Positions 10,316 to 57,484 are shown, counted from the first letter of the stretch. The stretch: DNA of 64,000 nt from Desulfurococcaceae archaeon MEX13E-LK6-19 (GCA_029637525.1 CP072660.1:620001-684000); one strand, 5' to 3'. Notes: a model not told the origin generated them from the sequence alone. Made by a program: numbers and translations.

Positions 10316-10322
10316 AAAACTA

Positions 10323-30354: not shown

Positions 30355-30464
30355 CAACCAATAAAACAATATAGTATTCGATTATATAAAAATGGTGTAA
30401 TAAAACCCTATATAGAAAGGTAGTACATGTGGTTAAACGAGAGACACAATACCAAGGGTTCTCT

Positions 30465-32172: not shown

Positions 32173-33255
32173 TTGAAGGGTGTTTTACTTCATGGTGGCT
32201 TTGGTACTAGGCTTCGTCCGTTGACTCATACTGGTCCTAAGCAGCTTATTCCTATTGCTGGTAAGCCTGTTAGCCAGTGGTGTCTTGAGGATCTCCGTGA
32301 CTCAGGTGTCAAGGAGATAGCTGTTATACTTGGTGAGCTTGCTCCGGAGAGAGTAATCGAGTACTATGGAGACGGTTCCTGGCTTGGTGTCAAGCTTACA
32401 TACATATATCAGGGATACCCCTATGGTCTAGCCCACGCCGTATATGTAGCTAAGGATTTTGTGGAAGAAGAGCCTTTTGTGGTTTATCTTGGTGATAATA
32501 TTCTTGTGGAGGGGATCAGGGAGTTTGTCCGCAGATTTGATAATAGTGATGCTGATGCCATGATTTTGTTGACGCAAGTCCCTGATCCACGTAAGTTTGG
32601 TGTAGCAGAATTTGATGAGAATGGGAGACTGAAGAGACTCGTTGAGAAACCCAAGAAGCCGCCGAGCAACTACGCACTTGTTGGCGTGTACTTCTTCCGT
32701 CCACCACACATATTCAGGGCTATCGAATCGCTCAAACCGAGTTGGCGTGGTGAACTAGAGATAACCGATGCAATCCAGAGGCTTATTGACTGGGGTTTGA
32801 GAGTAGACTATGCTGTTGTCAAGGGATGGTGGAAAGATACTGGTACACCCGAGGATATTTTGGAGGCGAATAGACTTCTCCTTGACTACAAGTACCATGA
32901 ACACATTGTTAAAGGCAAACTAGAAGAAAACGTACGCGTCGAAGGACGTGTCTACATTGAAGAAGGAGCTATTATAAAGAGCGGTAGTGTCGTAAGAGGA
33001 CCCGTCTACATTGGCGCCAACACTGTTATTGGGCCCAACACCTATATCGGGCCATATACCAGCATAGGCAAAAACTGTGTCATCAGTAATGTCGAGATAG
33101 AGAATAGTGTCATAATGGATAATGTGGTCATAAAAGACATCAGAGAAAGAATTGTTAACAGCTTGATAGGTTCTGGTGCAAAAATAACATGCAGGGCAAA
33201 GAGACCACACGGGCTAAGATTCATTGCAGGAGAAAACACCATAATAGAATGGTAG
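32173..33255 (+). CDS. rmlA: Glucose-1-phosphate thymidylyltransferase (long, archaeal type)
   Basis: Makes dTDP-glucose from dTTP and glucose-1-phosphate, the first step of dTDP-L-rhamnose synthesis. The nucleotide-binding motif HGGFGTRLRPLTHTGPKQ is followed by IPIAGKPVSQW, and VYLGDNI holds the metal-binding Asp. The C-terminal third is a left-handed beta-helix of hexapeptides (VYIGANTVIGPNTYIGPYTSIG). TTG 32173 is chosen because GGTGG at 32164-32168 precedes it and it yields the usual MKGVLLHGG start; a TTG at 32146 is also in frame. It heads the rml operon. Confidence 0.93.
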   Translation: MKGVLLHGGFGTRLRPLTHTGPKQLIPIAGKPVSQWCLEDLRDSGVKEIAVILGELAPERVIEYYGDGSWLGVKLTYIYQGYPYGLAHAVYVAKDFVEEEPFVVYLGDNILVEGIREFVRRFDNSDADAMILLTQVPDPRKFGVAEFDENGRLKRLVEKPKKPPSNYALVGVYFFRPPHIFRAIESLKPSWRGELEITDAIQRLIDWGLRVDYAVVKGWWKDTGTPEDILEANRLLLDYKYHEHIVKGKLEENVRVEGRVYIEEGAIIKSGSVVRGPVYIGANTVIGPNTYIGPYTSIGKNCVISNVEIENSVIMDNVVIKDIRERIVNSLIGSGAKITCRAKRPHGLRFIAGENTIIEW

Positions 33256-33273
33256 TAGCCTAGGTGGATATAG

Positions 33274-34278
33274 ATGAGGTTCTTTATCACTGGTGGAGCA
33301 GGCTTCATGGGCAGCAACTTTGTTAGATACATCATCAACAAGTATAGTGACGCAGAAGTACTTGTTTACGATAAACTAACGTATGCTGGTAGACTAGAAA
33401 ACCTCCAGGACATAAGAGATAACCCGAGATTTCATTTCGTCAAAGCCGATATATGTGACGAAGAAAAACTATTGCAGGTTCTCAAGGAATTCCAGCCTGA
33501 TGTCATAGTGAATTTTGCTGCTGAAACACATGTAGACCGTAGTATCAACGAGCCAGCACCATTCCTTAAAACAAATGTCCTTGGGGTCTTCAATATACTT
33601 GAGGCAACAAGAAAACTAGAGATACCACTGGCAATTCATATCAGTACCGATGAAGTCTATGGCGATCTATGGGGAAAAGAACCAGCTAGCGAGGAAACAC
33701 CCTTCAGACCAAGCAGCCCATATTCGGCAAGCAAGGCTTCTGGAGACTTGCTTTGCCAAGCTTACTGGAGAACATACAGGCTACCAGTAATAATCGTGAG
33801 ACCCTCAAACAACTATGGACCATATCAGTTCCCCGAGAAACTAATACCAAAAACAATCATTAGAGCACTACACGACAAACCCATACCAGTCTACGGTAGA
33901 GGAGATCAGGTGAGAGACTGGCTGTTTGTTGAAGACTTCTGTGAAGCACTTGACACGGTGATAAACAAGGGGTCTAAAGGCGAGGCATACAATATACCTG
34001 GGCTTAACGAGAAAAAGAACATAGAAGTCGTGGAAACCATCCTGAAGCTCATGGGCAAGCCCCTATCTTTAATCAAATTCGTCGATGATAGACCAGGACA
34101 CGACAGGAGGTATGCTATGAAGGGAGATAAGATACTCTCTCTTGGTTGGAAGCCCAAGACACCATGGGTTAAAGGATTGGAGAAAACAATCAAGTGGTAC
34201 CTCGATAACAAATGGTGGTGGAAGCCCTTGTTAAGCGATGATTACTTCCAGCTTGATACACCTTGGAAAAAGAGGTGA
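33274..34278 (+). CDS. rmlB: dTDP-glucose 4,6-dehydratase
   Basis: Extended short-chain dehydrogenase of 334 residues that converts dTDP-glucose to dTDP-4-keto-6-deoxyglucose. The NAD site is GGAGFMGSNF, the substrate-specific region is NFAAETHVDRSI, and the catalytic motif is STDEVYG with YSASK. The REF-type dehydratase contacts AETHVDRSI and STDEVYGDL distinguish it from UDP-hexose epimerases. It lies 18 bases after rmlA and 7 bases before rmlD. Confidence 0.95.
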   Translation: MRFFITGGAGFMGSNFVRYIINKYSDAEVLVYDKLTYAGRLENLQDIRDNPRFHFVKADICDEEKLLQVLKEFQPDVIVNFAAETHVDRSINEPAPFLKTNVLGVFNILEATRKLEIPLAIHISTDEVYGDLWGKEPASEETPFRPSSPYSASKASGDLLCQAYWRTYRLPVIIVRPSNNYGPYQFPEKLIPKTIIRALHDKPIPVYGRGDQVRDWLFVEDFCEALDTVINKGSKGEAYNIPGLNEKKNIEVVETILKLMGKPLSLIKFVDDRPGHDRRYAMKGDKILSLGWKPKTPWVKGLEKTIKWYLDNKWWWKPLLSDDYFQLDTPWKKR

Positions 34279-34285
34279 CCATGAA

Positions 34286-35185
34286 ATGAAGGTTCTTGTA
34301 ACAGGTGCGAGCGGTCTCCTCGGCAAAAAACTTGTTACAGAACTACTAGCTAACGGACACCAGGTTATAGCAATCTATAACCGTAATCCTGTGCCAATAG
34401 AGGATCCTAGCCTAGAGAAATACCGGATAGACATCTCCGATACTGTTCTACTGGAAGACCTTATACTAAAAAAGAGACCCGGCGTCATAGTCCACGCGGC
34501 CGCATATACCGATGTTGATGGATGTGAACGAGACAAGAAGAAAGCTTGGCTCGTGAATGTCGAGGCAACACGTAGTATCGTCCGAGCAGCACGAGTAGTA
34601 AGAGCACACTTGATCTATATCTCAACAGACTACGTATTCGATGGAGAAAGAGGATACTATAAAGAAACAGATATCCCTAACCCAGTAAACTACTATGGAC
34701 TAACAAAGCTTATCGCGGAGGAACTCGTAGGCTCAAGTGATCTATTGTATACTATTGTCCGTCCCAGCGCTATCTATGGCATTGGAGGGAGCAAGAAGAG
34801 TTTCGCAGAATACGTTGCCGAGAAGCTGTCAAAAGGAGAAAAAGTCTATGCACTAGTAGACCAGTATGTCTCACCAACACTAAACACCTTGTTGGCAAAA
34901 GCTGTTGCAGAAATAGTCGATATGAGGCCTATGGGTATATTCCATGTAGCTGGGGAACGTATGAGCCGTTACGAGTTTGCCATAAAAATAGCGGAAAAAC
35001 TAAACCTGCCTGTAGACCTAGTCGAGAAAGCAAGCATCAATGATATGAAGCATTGGCTAGCCAGAAGACCCAGGGACTCAAGCCTGGACACAAGCAAGGC
35101 TAGACGTCTCCTCAAAACAAGATTCTACGATACAAACCTAGCACTAGAACTATTTAGAAACGAGTGGACAGCTAAAACAAGGTGA
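34286..35185 (+). CDS. rmlD: dTDP-4-dehydrorhamnose reductase
   Basis: Short-chain reductase of about 299 residues that performs the last step to dTDP-L-rhamnose. The NADPH site is GASGLLGKK, then HAAAYTDVDGCE, and the catalytic motif is STDYVFDG with YYGLTK. ATG 34286 is chosen because GAGGTGA at 34273-34279 is spaced 6 bases before it; earlier in-frame codons would fall inside rmlB. The order rmlA-rmlB-rmlD-rmlC is common in Crenarchaeota. Confidence 0.95.
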   Translation: MKVLVTGASGLLGKKLVTELLANGHQVIAIYNRNPVPIEDPSLEKYRIDISDTVLLEDLILKKRPGVIVHAAAYTDVDGCERDKKKAWLVNVEATRSIVRAARVVRAHLIYISTDYVFDGERGYYKETDIPNPVNYYGLTKLIAEELVGSSDLLYTIVRPSAIYGIGGSKKSFAEYVAEKLSKGEKVYALVDQYVSPTLNTLLAKAVAEIVDMRPMGIFHVAGERMSRYEFAIKIAEKLNLPVDLVEKASINDMKHWLARRPRDSSLDTSKARRLLKTRFYDTNLALELFRNEWTAKTR

Positions 35186-40506: not shown

Positions 40507-41749
40507 AATTCTCGTTGTTAGCGAAAGATATCCTCCTGAGGGTACCGGAGGATCATATGCTACACATATGATCGTTAAATTGCTTGCAAAAACAAAAAAA
40601 TATCGAATAACAGTACTTACAGCAACATTAAATCCATATAGACTTCAAAACGTACAATATATCAGCATACCTTATACACTATCTTCCTCAAAATATTGTA
40701 TATGGGCAGAGCAAATTATAAAGTCTAATCTTATTAGAAAGCTTATAAATAAACATGACATAATTTACATAACAGATCATTCGTATATATTAATCCCACT
40801 GGCTTGGAAAGAAGAAAAGAAAATAATAGTCCATCTACATGATTATCAACCAATTTCAGCATCATCTGTATTAATTTACTGGAATGGGCATACATTAAAC
40901 TCTAAATACTCAACTTTATACTATGAAATTCTTCAAAAACGAAGCTTGGCAAGAGGCATTGTTTCGTTTTTACTAAGTTTTGTCAATGATGTTGTCTCGC
41001 AACATATAGCTCTAGCTGATCAAATAATATGTGTCTCCAATAGACAAAAAGAACTGTTGATTTCATATATGAATGGATTAAAAAATAAGGTTGCTGTTAT
41101 TTATAACCCTATTCCGGATGATCTAAAGAATATTAATTCTAAAATAAACTATAGTGATTACCCAATTATAGCTTATATGGGTGGTAGTAATGTAATCAAA
41201 GGAGCTTATATAGCGTTGAAAGCTGCTATTGATGTATTACGTAAAACCAACAATATTAAAAGCAAAAAGGTAACTTTCTTTATGAACATTCTAGGTAAAC
41301 GTGACAGTTCTCTAAAATGGCAAATGGGGGTTGGTCCGATAGAGATAGTTGATAGAATAAAAAATATACTGGCTGGAAATGAGAATCTAGTAATTACAGG
41401 ATGGATTGATAGAAAACAGTATATTAATTTACTTCAAAAAAGTTGGGCAGTACTTGTTCCCTCATTATGGGAAGAACCTTTACCATATGTTGTGATGGAA
41501 GCCATGGTTACAGGAACTATACCATTGGCTTCAAGAGTTGGTGGTATACCCGAAATGGTCTATAATACACCAGCATATAGATTTCTTTTCAATCCCTATA
41601 ATTATAATGAACTTCAAAAAAATATAGAATCTGTAACATCATTAGAGAAGAAAGAAATAGAAGATATAGGTAATGAATTAATAGAGAATGCGTATAAAAA
41701 GTTTAATGAACATATTATTTTAAATAAATTAGAAAACGTATTTAATTAA
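40496..41749 (+). CDS. GT4 glycosyltransferase
   Basis: GT-B family 4 enzyme of 417 residues. The N-terminal domain begins RILVVSERYPPEGTGGSYATHM and has IIVHLHDYQP. The C-terminal domain shows IAYMGGSNVIKGAYIAL, ITGWIDRKQYINLL and the EX7E-type VPSLWEEPLPYVVMEAMVTGTIP. Its start overlaps the preceding GT2 and its stop shares a base with the next start, so three genes are tightly coupled. Confidence 0.9.
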   Translation: MVSRILVVSERYPPEGTGGSYATHMIVKLLAKTKKYRITVLTATLNPYRLQNVQYISIPYTLSSSKYCIWAEQIIKSNLIRKLINKHDIIYITDHSYILIPLAWKEEKKIIVHLHDYQPISASSVLIYWNGHTLNSKYSTLYYEILQKRSLARGIVSFLLSFVNDVVSQHIALADQIICVSNRQKELLISYMNGLKNKVAVIYNPIPDDLKNINSKINYSDYPIIAYMGGSNVIKGAYIALKAAIDVLRKTNNIKSKKVTFFMNILGKRDSSLKWQMGVGPIEIVDRIKNILAGNENLVITGWIDRKQYINLLQKSWAVLVPSLWEEPLPYVVMEAMVTGTIPLASRVGGIPEMVYNTPAYRFLFNPYNYNELQKNIESVTSLEKKEIEDIGNELIENAYKKFNEHIILNKLENVFN

Positions 41750-43464
41750 TGAACTTCATATCATTCTTAGCAAGTATTTCGTCAATCCTTACAATACTTT
41801 TCCTATTGCTCTATAGTGTTAGCGGAAAATATACAAACATAATTAAAAAGGGTGTAAGTAATTTAGACTATGGTAAGAAATATCTATTAATAATAAATAT
41901 TTTTTTAATGATATTATTAATAATAGCTTCTATAAAATCAATTATTTATAGACCTAATTATTGGTACTACATTTATGTGCTGATAACAAATACTTTATTT
42001 ATTTATTATTTATTATCGCTGGTAAATGAATCTAAAATACATAAATCATATTTTTTGCTTACTATTCAAATTGTTGTATTTTCTTTAGTGATACTAACAA
42101 CATTTAATGTAGTTGGCTGGGTTCCTATAACAAGTGATGAAGGCAGGTATATAGGGTATGCCTACAGGATAGTTAAGGAGCATAAATGGTTTCCTTATAA
42201 GTATCCTGAGCATGAATATTATCAACCATTTCATGTTATACCATATCTAAGAGCAGTGTTTTCTCTAATTACTTGTCTTCCTATAGAGACTATTGCTCAT
42301 GTTTTGTTCGTTTTATGTATTAATATAATTTTCATGATGTTAATTTACATTCTGTCTAAAAGAATTTCAAACAATATAATTATAGCATTATTATCCATGG
42401 CTTTATTTTATGTTTCTCCAGCTACATCAGTGATTAATTTCATACCACGAGTATTAAGCAATATGCTCTTCTTTACTATGGTTACTGTTCTCCTGAAAAA
42501 AGATATTAAAATAGAAGTGAATGATTTAATAGTACTGCTTATAATAATAATTTCAGGGACGCTTATACATCCAACTTTTTCTTTACTTTCAGGACTTTTT
42601 ATAGTAATTTTCATTGTTTTTATTAATCATAATAAGAAAAGAATATTTCATATAATACTCATAATGTTTGTATTTATAACCCTGACGTACTGGCTTATTA
42701 CAGCTGGCTTAATTATAACTGTTAAATCGAGCAGGAACTTCTTCTATGGCTTGGTTTCAATCTTTAATGTTCTATCAGGCGAGAGTACGCAAAATATTAC
42801 TAGTGGCATAAGAGAACCCCATTACAGTAGAGCTCCATTACATTTAGCTTACTCTTGGGCATTCCTTCCTGCAATTTCTGCGGCATTCTTATTGAGTAAA
42901 CTTATGCGTTTGGATAAAAAGAAAAACCTATATGGTAATTTTTTTGGTGCCCTGTCTTTTGTGAGTATATCATTAATTATATTAGGTTATGCGATACGAT
43001 TTACTAGTGAACAATCAGTATATATAGGATATCCTTCATACTTACTGGCACTGCTAGTGGCTATAAACTATGTGTATAGACTATGGCGTAAGGGGTTTAT
43101 GAACATAATCTTGTTTATAATTCTATTGTCTGTGGGGGTGAATGTTGCCATTCTTGATCCATCATATTCCCCTGACGTATACAACTTAGTACCTATACCG
43201 GATAATACATATTGGAATATAGGAAAGAGTTTATCATTTTTAATAACTGGTGAATATACAAAACAAGTAGATAGAGAAATTAGGCTTGGTTTAAATGCGT
43301 ACATAATTGCTAATAAACCACAGCTCTTTGAGTTTTATAATGTACGGATAAAATCCAAACAAATCCTATATGTAAAAGTTTACGGTAAAAATGAATATTG
43401 TTGCGATCTTAAATTCAATATTCTAGTATATAATTGCTTAAAAGTAATAGTATTACTTAATTAA
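41749..43464 (+). CDS. Polytopic membrane protein, GT-C (GT39-like) fold likely
   Basis: Integral membrane protein of 571 residues with about a dozen hydrophobic segments and a short soluble C-terminal domain. Between the early membrane segments lies a loop WVPITSDEGRYIGYAYRIVKEHKW with an acidic DE pair, followed by EHEYYQPFHVIPYL. This is the place and form of the catalytic acidic motif in GT-C enzymes of the PMT/ArnT type, which use lipid-linked sugars. A polymerase-like role is the alternative. The gene context of glycosyltransferases supports glycan assembly. Confidence 0.65.
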   Translation: MNFISFLASISSILTILFLLLYSVSGKYTNIIKKGVSNLDYGKKYLLIINIFLMILLIIASIKSIIYRPNYWYYIYVLITNTLFIYYLLSLVNESKIHKSYFLLTIQIVVFSLVILTTFNVVGWVPITSDEGRYIGYAYRIVKEHKWFPYKYPEHEYYQPFHVIPYLRAVFSLITCLPIETIAHVLFVLCINIIFMMLIYILSKRISNNIIIALLSMALFYVSPATSVINFIPRVLSNMLFFTMVTVLLKKDIKIEVNDLIVLLIIIISGTLIHPTFSLLSGLFIVIFIVFINHNKKRIFHIILIMFVFITLTYWLITAGLIITVKSSRNFFYGLVSIFNVLSGESTQNITSGIREPHYSRAPLHLAYSWAFLPAISAAFLLSKLMRLDKKKNLYGNFFGALSFVSISLIILGYAIRFTSEQSVYIGYPSYLLALLVAINYVYRLWRKGFMNIILFIILLSVGVNVAILDPSYSPDVYNLVPIPDNTYWNIGKSLSFLITGEYTKQVDREIRLGLNAYIIANKPQLFEFYNVRIKSKQILYVKVYGKNEYCCDLKFNILVYNCLKVIVLLN

Positions 43465-43479
43465 CATAGGTGCGATACT

Positions 43480-44928
43480 ATGGGTAAGCTAGCATTAATA
43501 GGACTTGATGGCATGTCGTGGCATGTATTGCTCTCTTACCAGGATGCATTCAAAAGCACCTTAAAACTAGCTTCAAATGGTATGAGGGGTATTTGTTGGA
43601 GTATACCGCCATATACTCCACCTTCCTGGATATCTATATCGACGGGTGTTCACCCCCTAAAGCATAAAATACTGGGATTTACAAAACCCTTAATAGACAA
43701 AAAGGGTAATGTTAAAACAGTACTAATCAAAAGTACTGATATAAAGTATCCTCGCCTAAGTGAAATACTATCAATGAATGGAATGAAAAGTCTTGTCATA
43801 AATCATATATTTTCATATCCTTTAACGGGATGGTTTCTGTTTAATCACGTAATAGTGAGTGATGATACATCGCCGCAAAAAATAATCTTTCCTCGAAAAT
43901 TTAATATGTTCCTTAAATACTTTCAATGTTCAATTAAAGGCAGTAAAGAAAGTGATAAATGGATAGTAGATTTGGCGCAAAAACTTGAAGCAAAGATTGA
44001 AGGAATACATAAATTAATTCAAGAAGTAGAACCAGACTTCTTATGGGTTATGTTTAAGGAACCTGATATTATAATGCATTATTTGCAGTTTGTCGCTGCT
44101 GGTTTACATAATGATAAGGTTATGGAAGTATTTTCACTAATAGATGACTTCATTGACTATGTGAAAAAACAATTTGATTATGTAGTTATTGTCTCTGATC
44201 ATGGTTTTAATGTATATATAAACAGGTTAAACGTTTACAGTATATTGGCCAAAGGTCTTCATTTAGAAGAAACGAAAAGAGCTATCTTGCTGAAAATATT
44301 TGTTCTCCCTTTATCTAAGTATGTAACATGGTTTCTCTTAAGTTCAATGTTTAAACAGAGCCTTTGGTATAAGCTTAGGCATTACATATCGTTATATTTT
44401 GGATCACGAAAGAAATTCTGTAATAAAATAAATAATGTAAACAATAGTACCATATTTTTTGATGAAGTTGATGCTGATGATGCTTTTATTGTATATATAC
44501 TTGATGATGAAATATTTAAAAAAGCCATTAGTATATTAAAGAGACATAAATTAATTGAAGACGCTACACCTTTTGATATAGGAGGTATAAAAGGAATTCT
44601 TGTTGTACCTAAAAAAGGTTTACATTTTATCAATAATCGTGCGTACAAGGAGGAACTTATTTACTTTGCAGCATCACGTCATAGTCCAGCAGGATTATAT
44701 ATAATATATGGAAAACATTTATCCTCCGAAGTACGAAATATCAACAACTATGACATAGCTCCAACAGTATTATCTCTTTTGAAAATTCCTTTAGCAACCC
44801 ATTTTGATGGTAAACCATTGGTTTTACAACCTCAACTTGAGAAAAAAGACTATCTTAGCAAATATTATCTGTTAAAGAAATTGTACAAAATAAAAGAAAA
44901 AGTTTCTTTAGGAGGGATATATGGGTGA
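43480..44928 (+). CDS. Alkaline-phosphatase-superfamily phosphodiesterase/pyrophosphatase
   Basis: A 482-residue protein of the type I phosphodiesterase/nucleotide pyrophosphatase (COG3379) group. The metal site begins LIGLDGMSWHVL, the nucleophile region is PPSWISISTGVHPL, and later ligands are VVSDHGFN and ASRHSPAGLY. There is no signal peptide or membrane helix, so it is cytoplasmic or peripheral. GGTGCGAT precedes the ATG. COG3379 members recur in archaeal glycan clusters; the substrate may be a phosphodiester on the glycan or carrier lipid. A second, distant superfamily member is at 56057. Confidence 0.82.
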   Translation: MGKLALIGLDGMSWHVLLSYQDAFKSTLKLASNGMRGICWSIPPYTPPSWISISTGVHPLKHKILGFTKPLIDKKGNVKTVLIKSTDIKYPRLSEILSMNGMKSLVINHIFSYPLTGWFLFNHVIVSDDTSPQKIIFPRKFNMFLKYFQCSIKGSKESDKWIVDLAQKLEAKIEGIHKLIQEVEPDFLWVMFKEPDIIMHYLQFVAAGLHNDKVMEVFSLIDDFIDYVKKQFDYVVIVSDHGFNVYINRLNVYSILAKGLHLEETKRAILLKIFVLPLSKYVTWFLLSSMFKQSLWYKLRHYISLYFGSRKKFCNKINNVNNSTIFFDEVDADDAFIVYILDDEIFKKAISILKRHKLIEDATPFDIGGIKGILVVPKKGLHFINNRAYKEELIYFAASRHSPAGLYIIYGKHLSSEVRNINNYDIAPTVLSLLKIPLATHFDGKPLVLQPQLEKKDYLSKYYLLKKLYKIKEKVSLGGIYG

Positions 44929-46149: not shown

Positions 46150-46845
46150 ATGGGTGTTCTAATATCGTTTTGCGGCCCCGATGGTGTAGGTAAAACAACA
46201 ATGTATAGAATGTTAAAACATGTCTTTCAATTATATGCGAAAATATATAAAGTTGATTATGTATGGTTAAGATCACCCCATACTTTTGCTTTTATTCTGT
46301 ATAATTTCTATAGAAAAATAGGCTATGCTCGTCCAATACTTAAGACGAAAGTTTCAAAATACTTGTGGATATACATAGAGTTTGTAAGTATTCTTCCTAA
46401 GTTGATTATGATACTGATTAAACAACTATGTACGAAAAGAATAATTATTGCAGAAAGGTACCTACTTGATTCCATTGTTACCATTCTTGTCTATTTTGTC
46501 AGAGATATTAGTTTTATGAATTCATTGCCAATACGTTTTTTACTACTGGTTTCTTTTAAAAGCGTAACTAAAGGAAAGACTGTATTTATATGTTTAGATG
46601 CGGATGAAAAAACAATAATTGAAAGAAGAACAAAAAGATTATCTGATACTGATATTCATCTTCTCGTTCCTATAATTAGGGAAAAAATTAGGCCTTATAT
46701 AGTTGTGCAACGCATCATGTATAGAAAACTTGTCAAGTATCTAGGTGGATTCATTGTAGATAACACCGAAAAAACACCAATAGATACACTACACGAGGTC
46801 TTGACAATATTAAACAAAGTTTATAAATGGGAGCTTATACTATAA
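46150..46845 (+). CDS. Thymidylate-kinase-like P-loop kinase, paralogue 1
   Basis: P-loop protein of 231 residues with Walker A FCGPDGVGKTT near residues 7-17, WLRSPHTFAF, a DR-like motif IIIAERYLLDSIVTI, and a lid-like ERRTKRLSD. The fold matches the thymidylate kinase family, but the DRY motif is ERY and the interior is divergent, so dTMP is an unlikely substrate. Its sequence parallels the protein at 49609 (RGTHTFAS versus RSPHTFAF). Homologues occur in surface-polysaccharide clusters; phosphorylation of a sugar or glycan is an inference. Confidence 0.78.
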   Translation: MGVLISFCGPDGVGKTTMYRMLKHVFQLYAKIYKVDYVWLRSPHTFAFILYNFYRKIGYARPILKTKVSKYLWIYIEFVSILPKLIMILIKQLCTKRIIIAERYLLDSIVTILVYFVRDISFMNSLPIRFLLLVSFKSVTKGKTVFICLDADEKTIIERRTKRLSDTDIHLLVPIIREKIRPYIVVQRIMYRKLVKYLGGFIVDNTEKTPIDTLHEVLTILNKVYKWELIL

Positions 46846-47032
46846 AGTGGTATAAACCTTAAATTTTATCTATATACAACTTTTTCCTTCTAATTGGCCA
46901 GAGGAGAAGTTGTTTCTGTTAAGAAGGAATATTAATAACATTAAGATAATTGACTATGTAAGGTAAAAAATAAATAGCAAAACTTTAAGGATTACTATCT
47001 ATAATTGGTTATCTATACTTTGGGGGCGTCTA

Positions 47033-48046
47033 ATGATGAATGAGTATATGGAATACAAAGTAGGCATTGTTGGTGGAAGTGGATATATAGGTTTTGAGTT
47101 GGCCAGATATCTAAGTAATTTTATAAAGGTGAAAATAATAGACATAAAGCCTCCTATAAATCTTCCAGCAAATATAGAGTATGTTTATGGCGATGTCCGT
47201 GATTATAATTCGATTAAAAAAGCATTGAAAGACGTGGATGTAGTAGTACATTCGGCAATAATACAAATACCTAGAATAAATAAAGAAAAGAAATTAGGTT
47301 ATGAAGTCAATGTTATTGGTACACAAAATGTCTGTAAGGTTACTGAAGAAAATGAAAGGATAAAAGGTATGGTCTTGACAGGAACGTGGCATGTTTTTGG
47401 TGAAAGGGAAATTACTGGCATTATCAATGAGGAATTCGGTTATAGGCCAGATAAGGTTGAAGAACGAGCAAAATTATATGCTCTTTCTAAGGTTATTCAG
47501 GAAAGTATAGTTAGATTTTATGATGAAATGTCTGAAAAAGTTTTTGGTGTTATAAGGTTAGGGACAGTACTAGGTGAAAGAATGCCTGAAAAAACTGCGG
47601 CTAATATATTTATCAACAATGGACTTAAAGGTAAACCTTTAACGCCATATAAACATAGTATGTATCGTCCAATGTTATATATCGATATCAACGATGTATG
47701 TAGAGCCTTTAAAATATTTATTGATAAAATATTAAATGAGGAATTCAAGGAAACTTCGTATCATATAATTAACTTAGTTTATCCTGAGCCTGTAACAATA
47801 ATAGAGTTAGCTGAAATAATTAAAGAAGTTATAACAGAGATTACTAATGGAAAAATATCTCCCCCTATACAAATTGTTGACAAGGGCTTACCGATGATGT
47901 TCTCTCCTGAAGATAAAAAGAAGTTCCAAGTAGATCTAAGTAAGTTAGAGAAAGTATTAGGGATAAAATCTCTCATAAGTGTAAAGGATTCAATTAGACG
48001 AATTATTAGTTCTAGACTTAGAAATACAGTGTTTAATATCCAATAA
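47033..48046 (+). CDS. NAD-dependent epimerase/dehydratase (SDR)
   Basis: Extended SDR of 337 residues. The NAD site is VGGSGYIGFELA, then DVDVVVHSAI and VLTGTWHVFG; the catalytic Tyr-Lys pair is within KLYALSKVIQE. The late IDINDVCRAF is the usual substrate/loop element. It is divergent from the epimerase at 38663, and its TGTWHVFGE replaces the common SSSSVYGE, so it may act on a different nucleotide sugar. ATG 47033 or 47036 both fit. Confidence 0.85.
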   Translation: MMNEYMEYKVGIVGGSGYIGFELARYLSNFIKVKIIDIKPPINLPANIEYVYGDVRDYNSIKKALKDVDVVVHSAIIQIPRINKEKKLGYEVNVIGTQNVCKVTEENERIKGMVLTGTWHVFGEREITGIINEEFGYRPDKVEERAKLYALSKVIQESIVRFYDEMSEKVFGVIRLGTVLGERMPEKTAANIFINNGLKGKPLTPYKHSMYRPMLYIDINDVCRAFKIFIDKILNEEFKETSYHIINLVYPEPVTIIELAEIIKEVITEITNGKISPPIQIVDKGLPMMFSPEDKKKFQVDLSKLEKVLGIKSLISVKDSIRRIISSRLRNTVFNIQ

Positions 48047-48301
48047 TTAGATTATGTTTTACTATCTAGTGATGGTTCAAATTAAATTTCTAGCTAAACT
48101 TTATTAGTAATCACATAATTATGTTCAATAGAGTAATAGCTATGATATGTAATTATTAATTGGTTGTTACTTAATTAATAACCTTTTAACTTTTATCTTT
48201 ACTTTTAGTATAGATAGGTGAATACACCTAGGTGGTCTGTAGGATTAGGATAATGACAAATATATTGTATTGAAATAAATACATAGAATTGGTGCATGTC
48301 C

Positions 48302-49312
48302 GTGGGGAGAACGTGTAAAGTTAGCGTGATAATCCTCACGTACAATAGTGTATCTAAGTTAGGTAAATTGTTTGATAAAGTACTATCAAGTATATTTATG
48401 CAAGATTACCCCAATTTAGAGGTAATAGTAGTTGACAATAATTCAAATGATGGAACATTTGAATATGTAAAGAAAAAATATAGTTCTAAGTACAATCTTA
48501 AAGTTTTACGATTAAAGAAAAACTATGGATGGGGTGGAGGAAATAACCGTGGTGCTTTATTGGCTAAATATTCCGACTTCCTATTATTCGTAAATGATGA
48601 TGCTATCCTTGGGCCTAACTGTGTAAGCAAGCTTGTAAAGGTATTGAATGAACATCCTAATTTAGCGGCGGTTCAGCCATTAATTATTGAAGGTAATGGA
48701 AATATTATTTGTGGTCTTGATATGGGTTTTTCTGGTTTTTCCAGTATAGTTTCACACATACGAAGCTATCCTTTATCTGAGGCTTTTTATGTTAGTGGAG
48801 CTGTTTTCTTAACAAGAACTGACGTCTTTTTCCGGTCCGGAATGTTTGACGAAGATTTATTTGTATATCATGATGATACTGATTATTGTTGGAGGTTAAG
48901 GCTTATCGGTTATAAAGTTGCTTGTATAGCTGATGTTTATGCTTATCATTTTGGAAGTGTAACATGGGGTTCGGGCAGTCCTTTGCAGGTTTATTATATA
49001 ATAAGAAATAATTTTTTAGTTATTGCTAAAAATTCTTCACTTAAATGGTTAATACCTAGAATAACACTATCTTTAATAGTATCAATAATGTTTGTTTTCC
49101 GCTTCCTATACAACAAAAATAAGGCCTGTCTTGTTGCGGCGATAAAAGGTATAATAGATGGTTTAAGAGAATTAAAAATAGGGATAATGAAAAGGGCTTA
49201 TATTAGAAAAATTAGAAAAATAAGCGATGAAGAAGTAAATAAGGCTCTTAATAAGCGTGTCGATGTAAACTTATTACTCCCCCAAAGTGTGAGAAAAATA
49301 CTCGGGCTCTAA
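48302..49312 (+). CDS. GT2 glycosyltransferase, rhamnosyltransferase-like
   Basis: GT-A family 2 enzyme of about 336 residues. VSVIILTYNS and VIVVDNNSNDGT open the fold, followed by the subgroup mark NYGWGGGNNRGALLA and metal motif FVNDDAIL. FDEDLFVYHDDTDYCWRLRLIGYKV is the acceptor/catalytic end. This architecture is that of WbbL/RfbN-like transferases that often use dTDP-rhamnose, in keeping with the rml genes upstream. GGTG at 48291-48294 favours GTG 48302 over ATG 48296. Confidence 0.9.
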   Translation: MGRTCKVSVIILTYNSVSKLGKLFDKVLSSIFMQDYPNLEVIVVDNNSNDGTFEYVKKKYSSKYNLKVLRLKKNYGWGGGNNRGALLAKYSDFLLFVNDDAILGPNCVSKLVKVLNEHPNLAAVQPLIIEGNGNIICGLDMGFSGFSSIVSHIRSYPLSEAFYVSGAVFLTRTDVFFRSGMFDEDLFVYHDDTDYCWRLRLIGYKVACIADVYAYHFGSVTWGSGSPLQVYYIIRNNFLVIAKNSSLKWLIPRITLSLIVSIMFVFRFLYNKNKACLVAAIKGIIDGLRELKIGIMKRAYIRKIRKISDEEVNKALNKRVDVNLLLPQSVRKILGL

Positions 49313-49608
49313 TTCAATTTCTAGCAATAATAAACGATAATCTATATTTAATTAAATTTTTAATTCTACATAGAGAACCAATACAGCTCAATAATTGGGA
49401 CAGTGATATCTCTGCTACGAAATATTATTGACGTTTCTTTTCGATTAATGAAAAATAGTTTTCATATGCTTAATTTTGTTAAAGAACAAGCAGTATTATT
49501 GTTCCCCTTTAATAAGGAACCTAAAAACATTTAGTTCTCTATAAATAAAATATTAGAAAGGCTCGTGGGCTAAGCCTGTAGAATAAAATTAGTTTTGGTT
49601 GAAGAAAT
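49313..49608. other. Intergenic stretch with possible gene remnant
   Basis: AT-rich spacer. The plus-strand frame 49364-49534 is open for 56 codons (..VISLLRNIIDVSFRLMKN.. then VKEQAVLLFPFNKEP), looks protein-like but has no plausible start, and may be the tail of a lost gene. TATA-like CTATAAATAAA (near 49537-49549) could serve the kinase gene downstream. Confidence 0.35.
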
Positions 49609-50232
49609 ATGTCGCCACAAAAAATTATTTGTTTCTTCGGTCCCGACGGTTCAGGTAAAACTACGCTCGCAAGAGAGTTGGCGCAATTATTTGCACACAA
49701 AGGTATTAAAACAAAAATTTCTTGGATGAGAGGTACTCATACCTTTGCAAGTGTCCTCGCAAGGTTTCTTAATAAATTTAAGTACTTTAAAGGTCATGAT
49801 AACCCCTATTATGGTATTAAAATTCCATCAAATTTTGTATTTTTGTGGCAGTTTATAGAGGTTATTTCAATTATTCCTATATGGTTCTTTAGATATGTCT
49901 TTCCTAGACTATTGGGCTATGTTGTTATTGGTGAGCGAAGTCTAGTAGACTTTATTGTGTGGATGATCCTAACGACACATGACTATAAGTTTATTACAAG
50001 TTTCTTAGGCAAAATTATTTTGTCGTTAAACAATAAATTGTGTCAAAACATATATATAACAGCAAATAAAGATATTTTGATTCAGCGACGAAAAGATATA
50101 ACTATTTATACCATACCTATGCAGTTGTTATTGTATGATGTTATAGCTAGAAATATCAAGGTGCCAATAATTGATACATCTAATAAGGATATTTCATCAT
50201 GTATGAAAGAATTAATTTCTATCATATTTTAA
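49609..50232 (+). CDS. Thymidylate-kinase-like P-loop kinase, paralogue 2
   Basis: P-loop kinase-like protein of 207 residues. Walker A is FFGPDGSGKTT near residues 9-19, then KISWMRGTHTFASVLARFLNKF, the GERSLVDF motif in place of DRY, and IQRRKD as a short lid. It resembles paralogue 1 and is adjacent to a nucleotidyltransferase-like gene, which begins 17 bases after this stop. A decayed copy of the same pair occurs at 53904. A role in modifying sugars or glycan ends by phosphate or nucleotide transfer is inferred from that pairing. Confidence 0.78.
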   Translation: MSPQKIICFFGPDGSGKTTLARELAQLFAHKGIKTKISWMRGTHTFASVLARFLNKFKYFKGHDNPYYGIKIPSNFVFLWQFIEVISIIPIWFFRYVFPRLLGYVVIGERSLVDFIVWMILTTHDYKFITSFLGKIILSLNNKLCQNIYITANKDILIQRRKDITIYTIPMQLLLYDVIARNIKVPIIDTSNKDISSCMKELISIIF

Positions 50233-50249
50233 TTGCATTGGTGATCAAA

Positions 50250-51116
50250 ATGAATGAATATTTTAAAATAGTTTATGAAGTAGTGGTTCATAATAAGAAG
50301 AATGTATTTGACTTAAATAAGCATGTCCTACGGAACGCGAAACATAATAAAGTTTTACTTCATTTTCTAAGAGTAACGGAAATGGATAATGAAGTTAGAA
50401 ATAGTGAAGAAAGAAAATTTAAGTTAACAATTGAAATGATTGAATTAATTAAAAATAAGCTGAAAAAATTTGAAGGAAAGTATGTATTTTTTAAATTAGT
50501 AAAACCTGTTGTATATGTTCCTTCAGATATAGATCTTTTAGTAAAACGCAATATTTTGGGAGACATTGTTTCAAGCCTTAAAGAGCTTGGTTTTTTCATA
50601 GAGGTTGTTGAACCGTACTGCGTTACTTTAAGATCATCATGTTGTGTAATTGATGTTTATGTACATCCAACCCTTGGTGGAATGATCTATCTTAATGGAG
50701 ACCTACTTTTAGAACATAGTAGGGTTACTTCTTTCCATGGTACTGAGATCCCAACGCTTGAAACTTTTGCCGAAGCCCTAGTATGTGTTTCACATGCAAT
50801 CTACAAGGAAAGAATATATACATTAAATGATTACATTACGGTGAAGAAATGGTTTTCATATAAATCTAATATATTATGTGACTTGCTTAGGTGTAGAGAA
50901 GCAGCCTTATTAGCTTTTCATATTAACAAAATGGTTGAACAACAGAAAATTGAATTACCGTTTAGAATACCTTTATCTTTATGGATTAATATCTTATTTT
51001 CAAAAATAAAAAACGACAACATTTCACGTGCAACATCACTTAACTTAATCAAGGCATTGAACGATAAAAGAATTGGTAGATTGATTCTTTCAAAGTTAAC
51101 TAGGAAATATTATTAA
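50250..51116 (+). CDS. NTP_transf_5-like nucleotidyltransferase
   Basis: About 288 residues. The core VFFKLVKPVVYVPSDIDLLVKR contains a DxD metal motif after a beta strand, typical of the nucleotidyltransferase fold (NTP_transf_5, uncharacterised family). CCVIDVYVHPT supplies the third acidic residue, and SHAIYKERIYTLNDYITVKKW is a helical tail. ATG 50250 is preferred since GGTGATC at 50240-50246 precedes it; an earlier ATG at 50199 would overlap the kinase. The transferred group is unknown. It is paired with the TMK-like kinase. Confidence 0.75.
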   Translation: MNEYFKIVYEVVVHNKKNVFDLNKHVLRNAKHNKVLLHFLRVTEMDNEVRNSEERKFKLTIEMIELIKNKLKKFEGKYVFFKLVKPVVYVPSDIDLLVKRNILGDIVSSLKELGFFIEVVEPYCVTLRSSCCVIDVYVHPTLGGMIYLNGDLLLEHSRVTSFHGTEIPTLETFAEALVCVSHAIYKERIYTLNDYITVKKWFSYKSNILCDLLRCREAALLAFHINKMVEQQKIELPFRIPLSLWINILFSKIKNDNISRATSLNLIKALNDKRIGRLILSKLTRKYY

Positions 51117-51500: not shown

Positions 51501-52215
51501 ATGCAGAGGGAGATAGTTATCATAGTACTTAACTATAACGGATTACATGCGCTCGGAGCGAGGATACCGGGCAAATGCTTGAGGAGCATACTTGAAACCT
51601 ATTATGAGAACTTAGTCACAATATTTGTAGACAACGGGTCTGTAGATAACAACGTACACTTTGTCTCAAGATATTTCCAAAATTCATTGACGAGGGATAA
51701 CTAGACGTACTGCCATTGAAGAAGAATTGTGGTTGATCTGAAGGTAGTAATCGCGGAGCTGTATATGCTTTTAAAAGTATAGGACACATTACCTAGTATT
51801 TCTTAACAATGATGTATATATGCCTCAGAAGAGTGAGTTAAGGTTATTAATTGGAGCTGTGAGTCGGCATAATCTTTACGTGGCTTTACCCTAGTATATG
51901 AGGTGAAGTCGAAGAAGTATAATCTCTGAGATACTATTAAGAGTGATGATAAAAGTATACCTATAATCTTGGACTATGAGGGCTTAAGACGTATTAAGAA
52001 GGGAACCAAAGACGTGATTTACTTGCGTTCAGTACATTGAATAGCCCTTATTATTGTCAGTTATATATTTGCTCTCTTGAAGGATTTTAATGAAGGTTAT
52101 GGAGTGTACTATGATAGGGTTGACTTTTGTCATGGAGCCATTAAGCATATGTTCAGAGTAGGTATTGCCTTAAATGTTATTGTCTACCATTATAGAGGAG
52201 GTACAATTGAGCATA
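51501..52215 (+). pseudogene. Decayed GT2 glycosyltransferase
   Basis: The first 67 codons read as a GT2 start: IVIIVLNYNGL, GKCLRSILETYYENL and IFVDNGSVDNN, preceded by a good AGGTGAT site. The frame then ends at TAG 51702-51704. Recognisable later pieces occur in shifted frames: EGSNRGAVYAF and FLNNDVYMP near 51740-51820, and FNEGYGVYYDRVDFCH with IALNVIVYHYRGGT near 52090-52205. All the landmarks of a WbbL-like GT2 are thus present in order but broken by several indels and stops, so it is a pseudogene. Confidence 0.85.
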
Positions 52216-52390
52216 TAATTTGCTTAATAAACCCATTTTGCATTTAATAGTTCTTCTGTTATGAGATCTTCCAAATTTTAAATAATTCTTTGACTTGTAA
52301 GAGTAAATACGTTTATTGAAGTATAAAGTAATTAAATACTTGCAAATAGGTATATCATCATTGAAGAACATATGTTGGGTGTTGGAAACC

Positions 52391-53884
52391 TTGAGAGCAG
52401 AAGAAGTTAGTGTGGGTAGAATTGTTCGTGGTGGTTTCTGGCTTTATGTTAGCGGTGTTGTTAATAATTTGTCTGGTTTCCTGTACTGGATGGTTATTTC
52501 AGTTATTGCTGGTCCTGGCGTTGTTGGTGTTGTTAGTGCCGTTGTTAGTTTTGCATCTCTAGTTGCTGGTTTGTTGAACATAGGTATTGATGTGGGTGTT
52601 CAGAGATTCTATGGTATGGCTATTGGTAGAAATGACAAGATAAGGCTTTCTCAATATTTTTGGAGCGCCTTCTTTTACACCTTACTCATCTACTGTTTAG
52701 CGTTTCTATGTATTTTTTCCTTATCTCTCTTAGGCTACGGGTTTAGCGGCTTAACTCCTTTAATGTTAATGTTCAGTAGCATATTTATCTTATTTAATAT
52801 TAGTATCTGTATCAATGCTTTAATAATCTCTCTTCTGAGAACCGATATCTACTTCCTAGCAACTATTGTGGGTAATATTTTAAAGTTTATTGTTGGTACT
52901 GGTCTTGTCTTATTTGGTTGGGGTTGGATTGGTGCTGTTTTAGGTTATATGTGTTCCAGTTTTGTGGGATTAATTATCGGTTTTGTATTTTCTCTTAAAC
53001 ATATTATTAGGAGGTTTATGTTTTCCCTTAACGCTCTTCGTAGTATTCTAATTGCTGGGTTTGCTTCTTGGTTACCTAAGGTTATTGGCTTGTTTGGTAA
53101 GTGGCTTGGCGTGCTTGTCGTTTTCAGTGTTGCTGGGGCTGTCGAGACTGGTTATTACTACGTTGCTTTTGCTATAGCAAGTGTAGTTCTAATGATTGCT
53201 ACTAGCATGCTTCGTTTACTACTTCCAGTTCTATCTGGTATGAGTGATGGTAGGAAGAGGGCAGCTAGTCGAGTACTTAGAGTTAGTGCTGCGCTCATGT
53301 CTCCCCTAGCCGTATTCCTCATGTTTTACTCATACTTACCCTTGGCGTTGCTTGGTGAAGAGTATGTTAAGGCCTCTCTCATATTATCCGTACTTTTGCT
53401 TCCTTCATTATTGATGATCGTGAATTCATGTATTAACAGTCTTATATATGCTTATGGGTATTATAGGCTAGTATTAATATTAGGTTTGGGTGCTAACATT
53501 CCTAGAATCATTCTTTACTATATACTTGTTCCCCTGTATGGTGGACTTGGTGCGGCTGTTTCATTTGTTTTTGGCGCTTTCACTGGTTTTATCACGGCGT
53601 TGGTTATTGCTCGTAGAATAAGTTTCTACATAGGTTTTCGAGATCTCATATTAATATATAGTATCCCTTTAGTTTCTACACTTTTAGCCTACATTAATAA
53701 TGTGCCATGGTATATTAGCGGAATTTTAATCCTGATAGTATGTTCCATTGGATACTCCTTATTTGGAATCATTACAAGAAACGATCTTAAAGAGGTATCT
53801 CAAGCCTTTCTTAGTAGGGAAAAAACAATTTGGCTATATTATAAGTTTAAACCATTAATTGATATTTTATTTAAAGAAGATTAA
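52391..53884 (+). CDS. Polysaccharide flippase (Wzx-like, MOP superfamily)
   Basis: Integral membrane protein of about 497 residues with 12-14 hydrophobic segments. It opens GRIVRGGFWLYVSGVVNNLSGFLYW, then GVVGVVSAVVSFASLVAGLLNIGIDVGVQRFY, the pattern of RfbX/Wzx lipid-linked-oligosaccharide flippases. It would move the assembled lipid-linked glycan across the membrane. TTG 52391 is preferred because GGGTG (52377-52381) precedes it; the frame is open to 52316. Its GC content looks higher than that of neighbouring island genes. Confidence 0.88.
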   Translation: MRAEEVSVGRIVRGGFWLYVSGVVNNLSGFLYWMVISVIAGPGVVGVVSAVVSFASLVAGLLNIGIDVGVQRFYGMAIGRNDKIRLSQYFWSAFFYTLLIYCLAFLCIFSLSLLGYGFSGLTPLMLMFSSIFILFNISICINALIISLLRTDIYFLATIVGNILKFIVGTGLVLFGWGWIGAVLGYMCSSFVGLIIGFVFSLKHIIRRFMFSLNALRSILIAGFASWLPKVIGLFGKWLGVLVVFSVAGAVETGYYYVAFAIASVVLMIATSMLRLLLPVLSGMSDGRKRAASRVLRVSAALMSPLAVFLMFYSYLPLALLGEEYVKASLILSVLLLPSLLMIVNSCINSLIYAYGYYRLVLILGLGANIPRIILYYILVPLYGGLGAAVSFVFGAFTGFITALVIARRISFYIGFRDLILIYSIPLVSTLLAYINNVPWYISGILILIVCSIGYSLFGIITRNDLKEVSQAFLSREKTIWLYYKFKPLIDILFKED

Positions 53885-53903: not shown

Positions 53904-54640
53904 GTGACAAACAAAATAATTTGCTTCTTCGGACCCGATGGTTCTGGTAAAAACTGCTCTTGCAAGAGAGCTGTTCCAGTTATTCAATTACAGAGGTGTC
54001 AAGGCAAGAATTGCGTGGCTTAGGGGTACACATACTATTGCTAGCATTCTTGTTAAGCAAGTAATGAAGAAAAAAAGACTTGGTAAAGCTGTGAGTATGG
54101 TAGAGAGGATCTCACGTGAGCTTAAGGATTTAGATTACATGTTCTTTAAACTTGTTAAGCCTATTGTTTATGTATCATCTGATATAGACATTCTTGTTAA
54201 TCGAAATCATATAGCACAAGTGGTTTCTAAACTTAAAAATCTTGGTTCAAATATAGTAGTTCATGAACCTTACTGTATAATCATGAGTTTGTGTGGAGTA
54301 ATTATAAATGTTTATGTAAATTCTACTATAGGCGAAATAATATATCTTGATGAGAAAGTCTTCTCGAGCATAAGAGAATAGCTAACTATAATGGAGTTGA
54401 AATTCCGTCTCTGGAGAAATATGCTAAAGCTTTAGTAAGTATAGCACAAGCTATTTACAAGGAAAGAATTTATACATAAATGATTATGTTACCGTAAAGA
54501 AGTAATTATCTAAAAAATCAATTACGCTTGCTAAGGAACTTAGATGTTCAAATGCCATCAAGTTTGCAGTGTACATACGTGAGGCAGTTGAAAAAACAAA
54601 ATCATTTTATTGTACAAGATACCATTATCTTTATGGATCG
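53904..54640 (+). pseudogene. Deletion fusion of TMK-like kinase and NTP_transf_5 genes
   Basis: The GTG at 53904 opens TNKIICFFGPDGSGK, like the kinase at 49609. A run of five A at 53949-53953 (four in the intact paralogue) shifts the frame, and the next frame continues ALARELFQLFNYRGVKARIAWLRGTHT. After about 55 kinase residues it joins directly to NTP_transf_5 sequence: YMFFKLVKPIVYVSSDIDILVNR, as in the gene at 50250. Further shifts and stops follow after 54380, with remnants IPSLEKYAKALVSIAQAIYKERIYT and NDYVTVKK. An internal deletion of a kinase-NTase pair plus later decay explains it. Confidence 0.85.
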
Positions 54641-55176
54641 AAATAATGACATCTAAGATAATTCATGATAAAAATTTCAAGAGCATCGTTGTTTGTTTCT
54701 GATGTGTATACTAGTTAGGTATAAAGTTAATATTTCTTATAATACTTATTTTAATTTTAAGTAATTAAATTATATTCTATGAACAAAGAATATTTTTAAA
54801 TGTTTTAATTGGTACTCTTATTTACTAATTAATTATGAGACAGAAACTGTAAAACTGTAAATTAGTAATTTAAGGCAGAAATCGATAGTTATTTTAAACT
54901 AAAGAACTCTAGAATAAAGACCTTCACTATTCATTATAATTATCATATACATGTTATAAAGATAACTTGTATATGTTTCCGTACTTCTTAGGGAACTATA
55001 TTTTATTATACTCGTAATAAAAACAACACAAAAACACTTATAGTTATTATAGTTATTACGGAAGATAACTCTTAAAATCTAAAACTAATATTTATACCCT
55101 GTTGTTGTAGGAAACGCTAAATTATTAAATAAATCAAAATCAATAAATAGGATATACAAGGGGTCGGGTCCTCGGC
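54641..55176. other. Very AT-rich gene-free stretch
   Basis: About 535 bases of strongly AT-rich DNA behind the decayed kinase/NTase fusion. I see no frame with a ribosome site or recognisable domain. Several TATA-like runs occur near the end (for example AACACTTATAG near 55032), one of which could drive the methyltransferase. Confidence 0.4.
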
Positions 55177-55917: not shown

Positions 55918-56056
55918 AAGAAAATTAATGATATTATAAGGCTATGCTAATTGGTTGTTTGCCTTATAGCTCAGTTACTTATATAAGCTTCCTACTGTCT
56001 CGTACTAAATATTATGTGATGGGTATGTTACTTAGTCTTAAAAATTGGTGGTTTTT

Positions 56057-57484
56057 ATGAGTAAACTGAGAGGCGTAATTCTTATTGTTATGGATGCTTT
56101 AAGGTATGAGTCATTTAAACGTGCTTTGGAACTTGGTTTACTGAATAATCTTGCTTATATAGTGTCGAGGGGGATAACATTTGATAGGGCGTATTCTTTG
56201 ACTAATGCTACAGATCCATCGTTGACAACCATTCTAACAGGTTTACATCCTCTTGAGCATGGGATCATAAACCATGGGCCTAAAGTTAGTCCTCACGAAT
56301 ATGCTAAGGCCTTGAACACTCCTTCGATGACTGAAGTTTTAGCTAAGAGAGGGTGGTTTAATGTAGCTATAGACTTTCTAGAGAGGTGGTTTCTTAGATG
56401 GTTCAACCTATACTCTTCAGTGCACGATCCTTTGCTTTCATCTTTCTCTGGAAAAATTACTTTATTAGTTAAAAATGTTATTAGAGAAGGATATGATGGT
56501 ATTGAGAGAGTATTAAAGCAAGTACTTTTAGGAAAGAATTTTGTGTCCTTGAGTACTTTGCTAAGAAATCCTGGTATAGTCACGGATTTAGCATTAAGAT
56601 ATCTTGTATATGCGTTGTATAGAAAAAGAAAGTTCTTCATAATGATTCACTATTGGAGTACACATAGTCCTTACTATGCATCTAAGCAATTCTTCAAACA
56701 ATTAAAGGCATTAAAAAGCGTACTACTACCTTATGGTGTTAAAGATCTACCTTTAGATCGTGTACTTAAGACTATAGGTAATCCGTATTGGCGGGAATAT
56801 TTAGCAACATGGTTTAGTGAGGCAGGATATACTAAAGTATCTGATGTGGTGTTAGCTTATTATGCTGCTCTTCTATTTATTGACAAGGAACTTGGCAGAC
56901 TTATTAAGTTTCTTGAATATAATGGTCTTCTGGACGAGATTGCAATTATTGTGACTGCTGATCATGGTGAATCGCTCGGTGAACATGGAATTTACTTTGA
57001 TCACCATGGTCTCTATGAGGTTAGTTTGCGTATACCGTTGATATTTTATTACGAGCCCATTGGTAGCAGTAAAGCTAAAGGTGTTGCATTACATAATGAT
57101 ATAGCTCCTACGATTTTAGAGCTTGCAAACGTAGAAAAGAGTATGATCGTAAATAAATACAATCTTCTCAATATACTAGATTATGACCCTAGACAGGAGG
57201 AGCCAGTAATATTTCTTGAAACTTTTACAGAAGCAAAACTAGGAATAAAAATTGGAAACTATAAGTTCATTAAAGCGCTAAATATGAAGGATGCCATATG
57301 TAGGTACTGCCTTAGAGTCCATGGTGGAATAAAGGAGCTATATGATCTTAAGAAAGATCCTAATGAGATGATAAATATAGTTAATGAAGAGAAGGATCTT
57401 GTTAGGCGTCTTGAAAGAAAGTTCTCAAAAGTCTTCCTCAAATTCAAGACAAGACTTATTGCCTCGAGGATTTTCTCACATTAA
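56057..57484 (+). CDS. Sulfatase/phosphatase-like alkaline-phosphatase-superfamily protein
   Basis: About 475 residues. LIVMDALRYESF holds the first metal Asp, NATDPSLTTILTGLHPLEHGI is the nucleophile region (no Cys, so a true formylglycine sulfatase is unlikely), and IVTADHGESLGEHGIYFDHHGLYE supplies later ligands. The end KELYDLKKDPNEMINI is typical of sulfatase-type folds. GGTGG (56047-56051) favours ATG 56057 over TTG 56045. Likely hydrolase or transferase of a phosphate or sulfate ester on glycans. It is distant from the protein at 43480. Confidence 0.82.
   Translation: MSKLRGVILIVMDALRYESFKRALELGLLNNLAYIVSRGITFDRAYSLTNATDPSLTTILTGLHPLEHGIINHGPKVSPHEYAKALNTPSMTEVLAKRGWFNVAIDFLERWFLRWFNLYSSVHDPLLSSFSGKITLLVKNVIREGYDGIERVLKQVLLGKNFVSLSTLLRNPGIVTDLALRYLVYALYRKRKFFIMIHYWSTHSPYYASKQFFKQLKALKSVLLPYGVKDLPLDRVLKTIGNPYWREYLATWFSEAGYTKVSDVVLAYYAALLFIDKELGRLIKFLEYNGLLDEIAIIVTADHGESLGEHGIYFDHHGLYEVSLRIPLIFYYEPIGSSKAKGVALHNDIAPTILELANVEKSMIVNKYNLLNILDYDPRQEEPVIFLETFTEAKLGIKIGNYKFIKALNMKDAICRYCLRVHGGIKELYDLKKDPNEMINIVNEEKDLVRRLERKFSKVFLKFKTRLIASRIFSH

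Follow-up and report, generated by a model that had tools for sequence, protein, structure and literature searches.

LicD and FKRP are glycan-pathway enzymes with the nucleotidyltransferase (NTase) fold, and they transfer phospho-groups from cytidine diphosphate (CDP) donors. In the lasso peptide pseudomycoidin, the kinase PsmK adds a phosphate to the C-terminal serine. One or two hexoses are then attached to that phosphate, for which PsmN, annotated as a nucleotidyltransferase, is required (PMC9266682, PMC8498205). Whether PsmN transfers the hexose directly or nucleotidylates the phosphate ahead of a host glycosyltransferase was left open in a review (PMC9266682). Lasso-peptide kinases of the PsmK kind are homologues of HPr kinase (PMC8498205). 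Here we describe a kinase-NTase pair in the archaeon Desulfurococcaceae archaeon MEX13E-LK6-19, whose sequence relatives belong to the archaeal phylum Thermoproteota. The pair lies in a stretch of 64,000 nucleotides, the window, which corresponds to positions 620001-684000 of a single-contig genome of 1.91 Mb. An earlier note on this DNA had described two thymidylate kinase (TMK)-like kinases, one of them adjoining an NTase, and these genes are present as follows.

46150-46845, plus strand: K1, a kinase of the TMK-like family, 231 residues, with the P-loop GPDGVGKTT; it does not adjoin any NTase.
49609-50232, plus strand: K2, the TMK-fold kinase of the module, 207 residues, assigned from AlphaFold2, Foldseek and the (D/E)RxxxD motif.
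50250-51116, plus strand: the NTase, 288 residues, a divergent NTP_transf_5 protein of the DNA polymerase beta (pol-beta) fold, assigned from a weak PF14907 match, invariant residues and the fold; the start is approximate.

The kinase-NTase pair is a genuine module. It is conserved, linked, at times fused and found in glycan loci, its catalytic motifs and folds are intact, and its kinase does not have the signature of a kinase for deoxythymidine monophosphate (dTMP). We propose, with about an even chance of being right, that K2 and the NTase are a pair of tailoring enzymes in a surface-glycan pathway. The TMK-fold kinase would transfer phosphate from adenosine triphosphate to a sugar, an alditol or the end of a glycan, and the pol-beta-fold NTase would then add a second group via that phosphate, which could be a nucleotidyl group, a sugar or a phospho-alditol from a nucleotide donor. 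The outcome would be a phosphodiester-linked decoration of the surface glycan.

We surveyed a sample of 229 genomes of the same class at a threshold of E ≤ 1e-6. The NTase family was found in 33 genomes and the kinase family in 40 (33 without short matches), and 26 genomes had both. A kinase was located within 3 kb at 29 of the 37 NTase places, and at 19 of them the distance was 100 bases or less, against about 0.18 expected by a simple chance estimate for random placement in a genome of 1.5 Mb, which ignores the kinship of the genomes. The kinase is usually directly upstream of the NTase on the same strand, and the two genes often overlap. The pairing also occurs in records of Bathyarchaeota, Vulcanisaeta, Thermofilum and Nitrososphaeria and throughout the phylum sample, so the linkage of a kinase with NTP_transf_5 that the earlier note had made a condition of its reading does exist in other genomes; no relatives of the pair were found on plasmids. 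At some loci (for example L042, L055, L127, L121 and L137) there is a second, more distant kinase, resembling the K1-plus-K2 layout of the window. The protein distances of kinase and NTase over 18 pairs were correlated (r = 0.88, permutation p = 0.0002), of which a part is due to the common descent of the genomes. Three natural proteins contain both domains: L135 (540 residues) and L146 (537 residues) in the order kinase-NTase, and L149 (602 residues) in the order NTase-kinase. That the domains are fused in either order speaks strongly for a shared task of the kinase and the NTase.

The kinases have the fold of TMK, which would allow that they are ordinary dTMP or nucleotide kinases placed in a glycan locus by chance. 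With the AlphaFold2 model of K2 (mean predicted local distance difference test score, pLDDT, 91.7), the best Foldseek matches were thymidylate kinases, with a template modelling (TM) score of up to 0.71 for Sulfolobus ST1543, and the P-loop and C-terminal half of the kinase profile can be aligned to TMK. The acceptor-binding middle part is diverged from TMK. K1 and K2 scored 13.0 and 19.2 bits against PF02223 (cut-off 27) and 16.9 and 22.6 bits against TIGR00041 (cut-off 83.25), thus both kinases failed both cut-offs; two of the fused relatives exceed the PF02223 cut-off (31.8 and 46 bits). A separate true TMK is encoded in the same genome (G000:C1:599014-599550, 153.7 bits). Because of this gene and the scores of K1 and K2 far under the TMK cut-offs, K1 and K2 are not the dTMP kinase of the cell. 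K1 and K2 are 27% identical to each other (tblastn E 5e-17). K1 scores E 3.4e-60 against the kinase-family profile, which was built with K1 included, and it has no firm position in the tree.

The motif around the DR arginine is also different. The sequence DRYxxSSxAYQ or a near variant was found in 18 of 19 TMK-profile proteins of the relatives; the 19th, L198, is a divergent second copy with DRYVYTAYA. All family kinases in which the motif could be located have (D/E)RxxxD, where Asp replaces the TMK Ser/Thr four residues past the DR arginine, and the TMK motifs AADR, with its upstream arginine, and AYQ are missing from the family in the comparison with the TMKs of relatives. The earlier note had emphasized ERY/ERS in place of DRY. 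This is correct for K1 and K2 (the K1 motif is ERYLLD), but in close relatives the motif reads DRG or DRY; D and E are both present within the family, so the replacement of D by E is not diagnostic and was rejected as a family mark. By its sequence, the kinase appears to be a TMK fold with an altered acceptor site and does not look like a dTMP kinase, in agreement with the doubt of the earlier note that these kinases act on dTMP. With the linkage to the NTase far above chance in addition, we consider an ordinary dTMP kinase highly improbable.

The NTase is divergent. The window protein matches PF14907 (NTP_transf_5) weakly (E 9.7e-4; its score of 19.2 bits is below the cut-off of 31.2), and several relatives and all three fusions exceed this cut-off (59.0, 66.7 and 50.9 bits for the fusions). 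Its longest open reading frame begins at 50199; a start at 50250 is more likely, since the relatives align from there and GGTGAT is just upstream. The model of the NTase (pLDDT 92.6) has a pol-beta-type fold. Its best solved matches in Foldseek were TM1012, the MenT1 toxin, the lincosamide adenylyltransferase LnuA and ANT(2'')-Ia, with E of about 2e-4 to 1e-3. By sequence, no convincing relative was found among solved structures, and a search for PF04991 (LicD) with the NTase gave no match. The DxD...D triad is intact in the alignment of the NTase family, in which D93, D95 and D135 are invariant, together with K82 and P86.

The glycine after the lysine is missing in all 22 aligned TMK-linked members. 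They have the lysine followed by L, T, F, Y or S and then a proline, with a shorter loop to the DxD; the window protein has FKLVKP. A further archaeon of the phylum (L145) has an NTP_transf_5 protein of 130 bits that adjoins an HPr-kinase-like protein (PF07475, below the cut-off), at 3-824 and 1078-2514. This PF14907 protein keeps the glycine (FKGVLL), and the glycine contrast rests on this one HPr-kinase-linked protein. The missing glycine and the shorter DxD loop set the TMK-linked NTases apart as a distinct branch in sequence, and their donor may be other than a plain nucleoside triphosphate.

The resemblance to a toxin brings in a different role, in which the NTase is under the control of the kinase or the two form a toxin-antitoxin pair similar to TakA-TglT. 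The NTase fold is near that of MenT1, TglT itself was matched by Foldseek at E 0.021, and in TakA-TglT a kinase is likewise paired with an NTase (PMC7205606). However, TakA was described as an atypical kinase of a COG5340-DUF1814 pair and not as TMK-like (PMC7205606). Both domains are fused in natural proteins, the pair is steadily placed among glycosyltransferases, and an intact NTase is present without a kinase in a one-contig genome (G112). PADLOC showed nothing of note and no viral relatives were found. With these results and the glycan neighbours, a defence or toxin-antitoxin function has little support, and we regard regulation or a toxin-antitoxin role as quite unlikely.

The glycan context of the pair was confirmed in other genomes as in the window. 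The 88 neighbours of eleven tight pairs included ten group 1 glycosyltransferases, ten family 2 glycosyltransferases (GT2) and seven sugar dehydratases or epimerases; at seven more divergent loci, 23 of the 64 neighbours were group 1 glycosyltransferases. In the window, K1, K2 and the NTase are within a surface-glycan locus of about 32 to 57 kb, which by profile searches of the window proteins also encodes several glycosyltransferases of GT2 and family 4 (GT4) and sugar dehydratases. The glycan setting named in the earlier note is thus borne out by the neighbours. The other features of the locus are the following.

32146-33255: a PF00483 nucleotidyltransferase, from a profile match.
32146-35185: this nucleotidyltransferase together with RmlB/RmlD-like enzymes, from profile matches.
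43480-44928 and 56045-57484: alkaline-phosphatase-superfamily proteins, a PF01663 phosphodiesterase-family protein and a PF00884 sulfatase-family protein.
47033-48046, plus strand: a sugar epimerase/dehydratase of the short-chain dehydrogenase/reductase type between K1 and K2 (PF01370, 2.2e-21).
48296-49312, plus strand: a GT2 glycosyltransferase (PF00535, 4.1e-24), with a sub-cut-off match to an NCBIfam rhamnosyltransferase subfamily (3.4e-24).
52316-53884, plus strand: a flippase-like polysaccharide exporter (PF13440, 2.1e-16).
53905-54690, plus strand: a decayed second kinase-NTase copy, from tblastn with K2 and the NTase.
55177: a methyltransferase.

A kinase and a nucleotidyltransferase beside glycosyltransferases and sugar dehydratases are also the usual layout of a sugar-activation pathway, in which the NTase would convert a sugar-1-phosphate from the kinase into a nucleotide diphosphate (NDP)-sugar for the neighbouring glycosyltransferases. 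The natural fusions recall the bifunctional fucokinase/pyrophosphorylase. Heptose or fucose kinase/pyrophosphorylase pairs are known, and their families are unrelated to the present pair. The known sugar-1-phosphate nucleotidylyltransferases have a different fold, of the PF00483/MobA type, and the locus already has its own copy at 32146-33255, which makes the synthesis of an NDP-sugar by the pair less likely. In addition, the characterised pol-beta-fold NTases use hydroxyl acceptors. We take sugar activation as the leading alternative to our proposal, though a fairly doubtful one.

The genes downstream of the NTase are compatible with capping, in which the kinase would phosphorylate the non-reducing end of a polysaccharide and the NTase would modify the phosphate, as a stop of growth and a mark for export. 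WbdD phosphorylates the non-reducing end of a polysaccharide. In the window, the flippase comes after the pair and a methyltransferase is at 55177, but in the listed families of neighbours, neither exporters nor methyltransferases stood out as recurrent partners. Capping or chain termination is an unlikely function, less so than a toxin-antitoxin one.

For the tailoring module of K2 and the NTase, we infer sequential action, with the kinase first and a phosphodiester as the product. Phosphorylation followed by nucleotidylation or phospho-transfer, as the earlier note suggested, would agree with both folds and with what is known of pseudomycoidin. The pair probably puts phosphate-linked groups on sugars. 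Several points weigh against our proposal. The use of a nucleotide by the window NTase is not certain, because the protein is under the PF14907 cut-off and its family does not have the glycine after the lysine. The chemistry of PsmN itself is unsettled (PMC9266682). In the one-contig genome G112 an intact NTase occurs without a kinase; a sugar epimerase, a glycosyltransferase and a polysaccharide pyruvyl transferase are encoded nearby. K1 and some other kinases are likewise unpaired, which indicates that the two steps are separable. A further tentative possibility is that the glycine-less pol-beta-fold NTase is no longer a true nucleotidyltransferase and moves a sugar or alditol from a nucleotide donor onto the kinase-made phosphate of the glycan or its precursor, which would be an undescribed archaeal pathway to phosphodiester-linked glycans.

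The decayed copy reported in the earlier note does exist, at about 53905-54690 and thus outside the interval 46150-51116 to which it was assigned, and its fusion was made by deletion. The reading frame shifts within the P-loop (about 53950), an internal deletion joins kinase residue ~58 to NTase residue ~54, and stops appear from about 54380 on. The fusion in this dead copy is therefore a deletion product; genuine fusions occur elsewhere. By tblastn it matches K2 at 1.3e-14, with 57% identity in the main piece, and the NTase at 8e-25. Among the sequences compared, it is nearest to the NTase of the window. Since its protein identity to the live pair is only about 46-58%, we find no support for a recent tandem duplication within the window, and the dead copy is an old relative rather than a newly made one. 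The pair is also frequently decayed or frameshifted in other genomes (G103, G125, G169, L057, L058, L059 and L061), although some of these cases are possibly sequencing errors. The decay elsewhere suggests a fast turnover of the glycan feature.

A second pseudogene is close to the dead copy. Between the NTase and the flippase there is a decayed GT2 glycosyltransferase (51501-52250), of which a 67-residue remnant matches PF00535 (E 8.9e-5) before the frame breaks. The G+C content drops from about 0.44 to 0.30 across 36-52 kb of the window, which is part of the glycan locus; a drop of this type is common to many variable or acquired loci. The two alkaline-phosphatase-superfamily proteins (PF01663 and PF00884) are possibly transferases or hydrolases of phospho- or sulfo-groups and would deserve attention should the glycan contain phosphate. 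A 571-residue protein in the glycan locus (41749-43464) has no Pfam or NCBIfam match. Outside the locus, two paralogous neighbours on the minus strand (23199-26126 and 27433-30369; 975 and 978 residues, 44% identical) carry Ig-like domains and a C-terminal hydrophobic segment and are likely surface proteins. The 2232-residue product of a low-G+C gene at 10281-16979 has beta-helix and NosD repeats and is likely to be a giant surface protein.

PF14907 is labelled 'uncharacterised', and its conserved and at times fused partnership with a kinase offers a testable two-step reaction. Our literature search found no paper naming PF14907 or NTP_transf_5, but most subscription papers were outside its coverage, so this absence is not proof; likewise, nothing relevant was found on NTP_transf_5 with thymidylate kinase, archaea or glycosyltransferase. 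One logic may join archaeal surface glycans and bacterial lasso peptides, in which a phosphate is introduced by a kinase, of one fold or the other, and then extended by an NTP_transf_5-like enzyme. If this is true, phosphate-containing glycans are predicted on the surfaces of hyperthermophilic archaea. Annotations as 'thymidylate kinase' within glycan loci can mislead and should be read with caution.

Compared with dTMP kinases (PF02223/TIGR00041), the archaeal kinase shares the fold, the P-loop and the (D/E)R motif, whereas it has Asp for Ser/Thr, no AADR or AYQ and a diverged acceptor-binding middle part. The NTase is similar to NTP_transf_5 (PF14907) in its profile match, in the fused relatives over the cut-off and in the DxD...D triad. 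Unlike the PF14907 protein of L145 with its HPr-kinase partner, the TMK-linked NTases do not have the FKG glycine. LicD and FKRP likewise have the NTase fold and act in glycan pathways, but the resemblance of the window NTase to the FKRP fold is weak (E 0.03, TM 0.28). The NTase fold is shared with the TakA-TglT and MenAT toxin-antitoxin systems, and TakA-TglT is also a kinase/NTase pair; it differs as a type VII system with a COG5340-type kinase beside a DUF1814 NTase, whereas the archaeal kinase is of TMK fold in a glycan setting and an intact NTase without the kinase exists. As with PsmK and PsmN, which act on one product, a kinase and a 'nucleotidyltransferase' share one gene cluster, and the NTP_transf_5 protein of L145 is beside a protein of the class to which lasso-peptide kinases are reported to belong (PMC8498205). 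PsmK and PsmN have a peptide substrate and a lasso cluster, whereas the archaeal kinase is TMK-like and the setting is a glycan locus, with no lasso enzyme among the scanned window neighbours of the pair; PsmN was compared by description only. The logic of a kinase plus an NTase is thus already known from lasso peptides, and what is new, to our knowledge, is the TMK fold of the kinase, the NTase branch without the glycine, the fusions and the setting in archaeal glycan loci.

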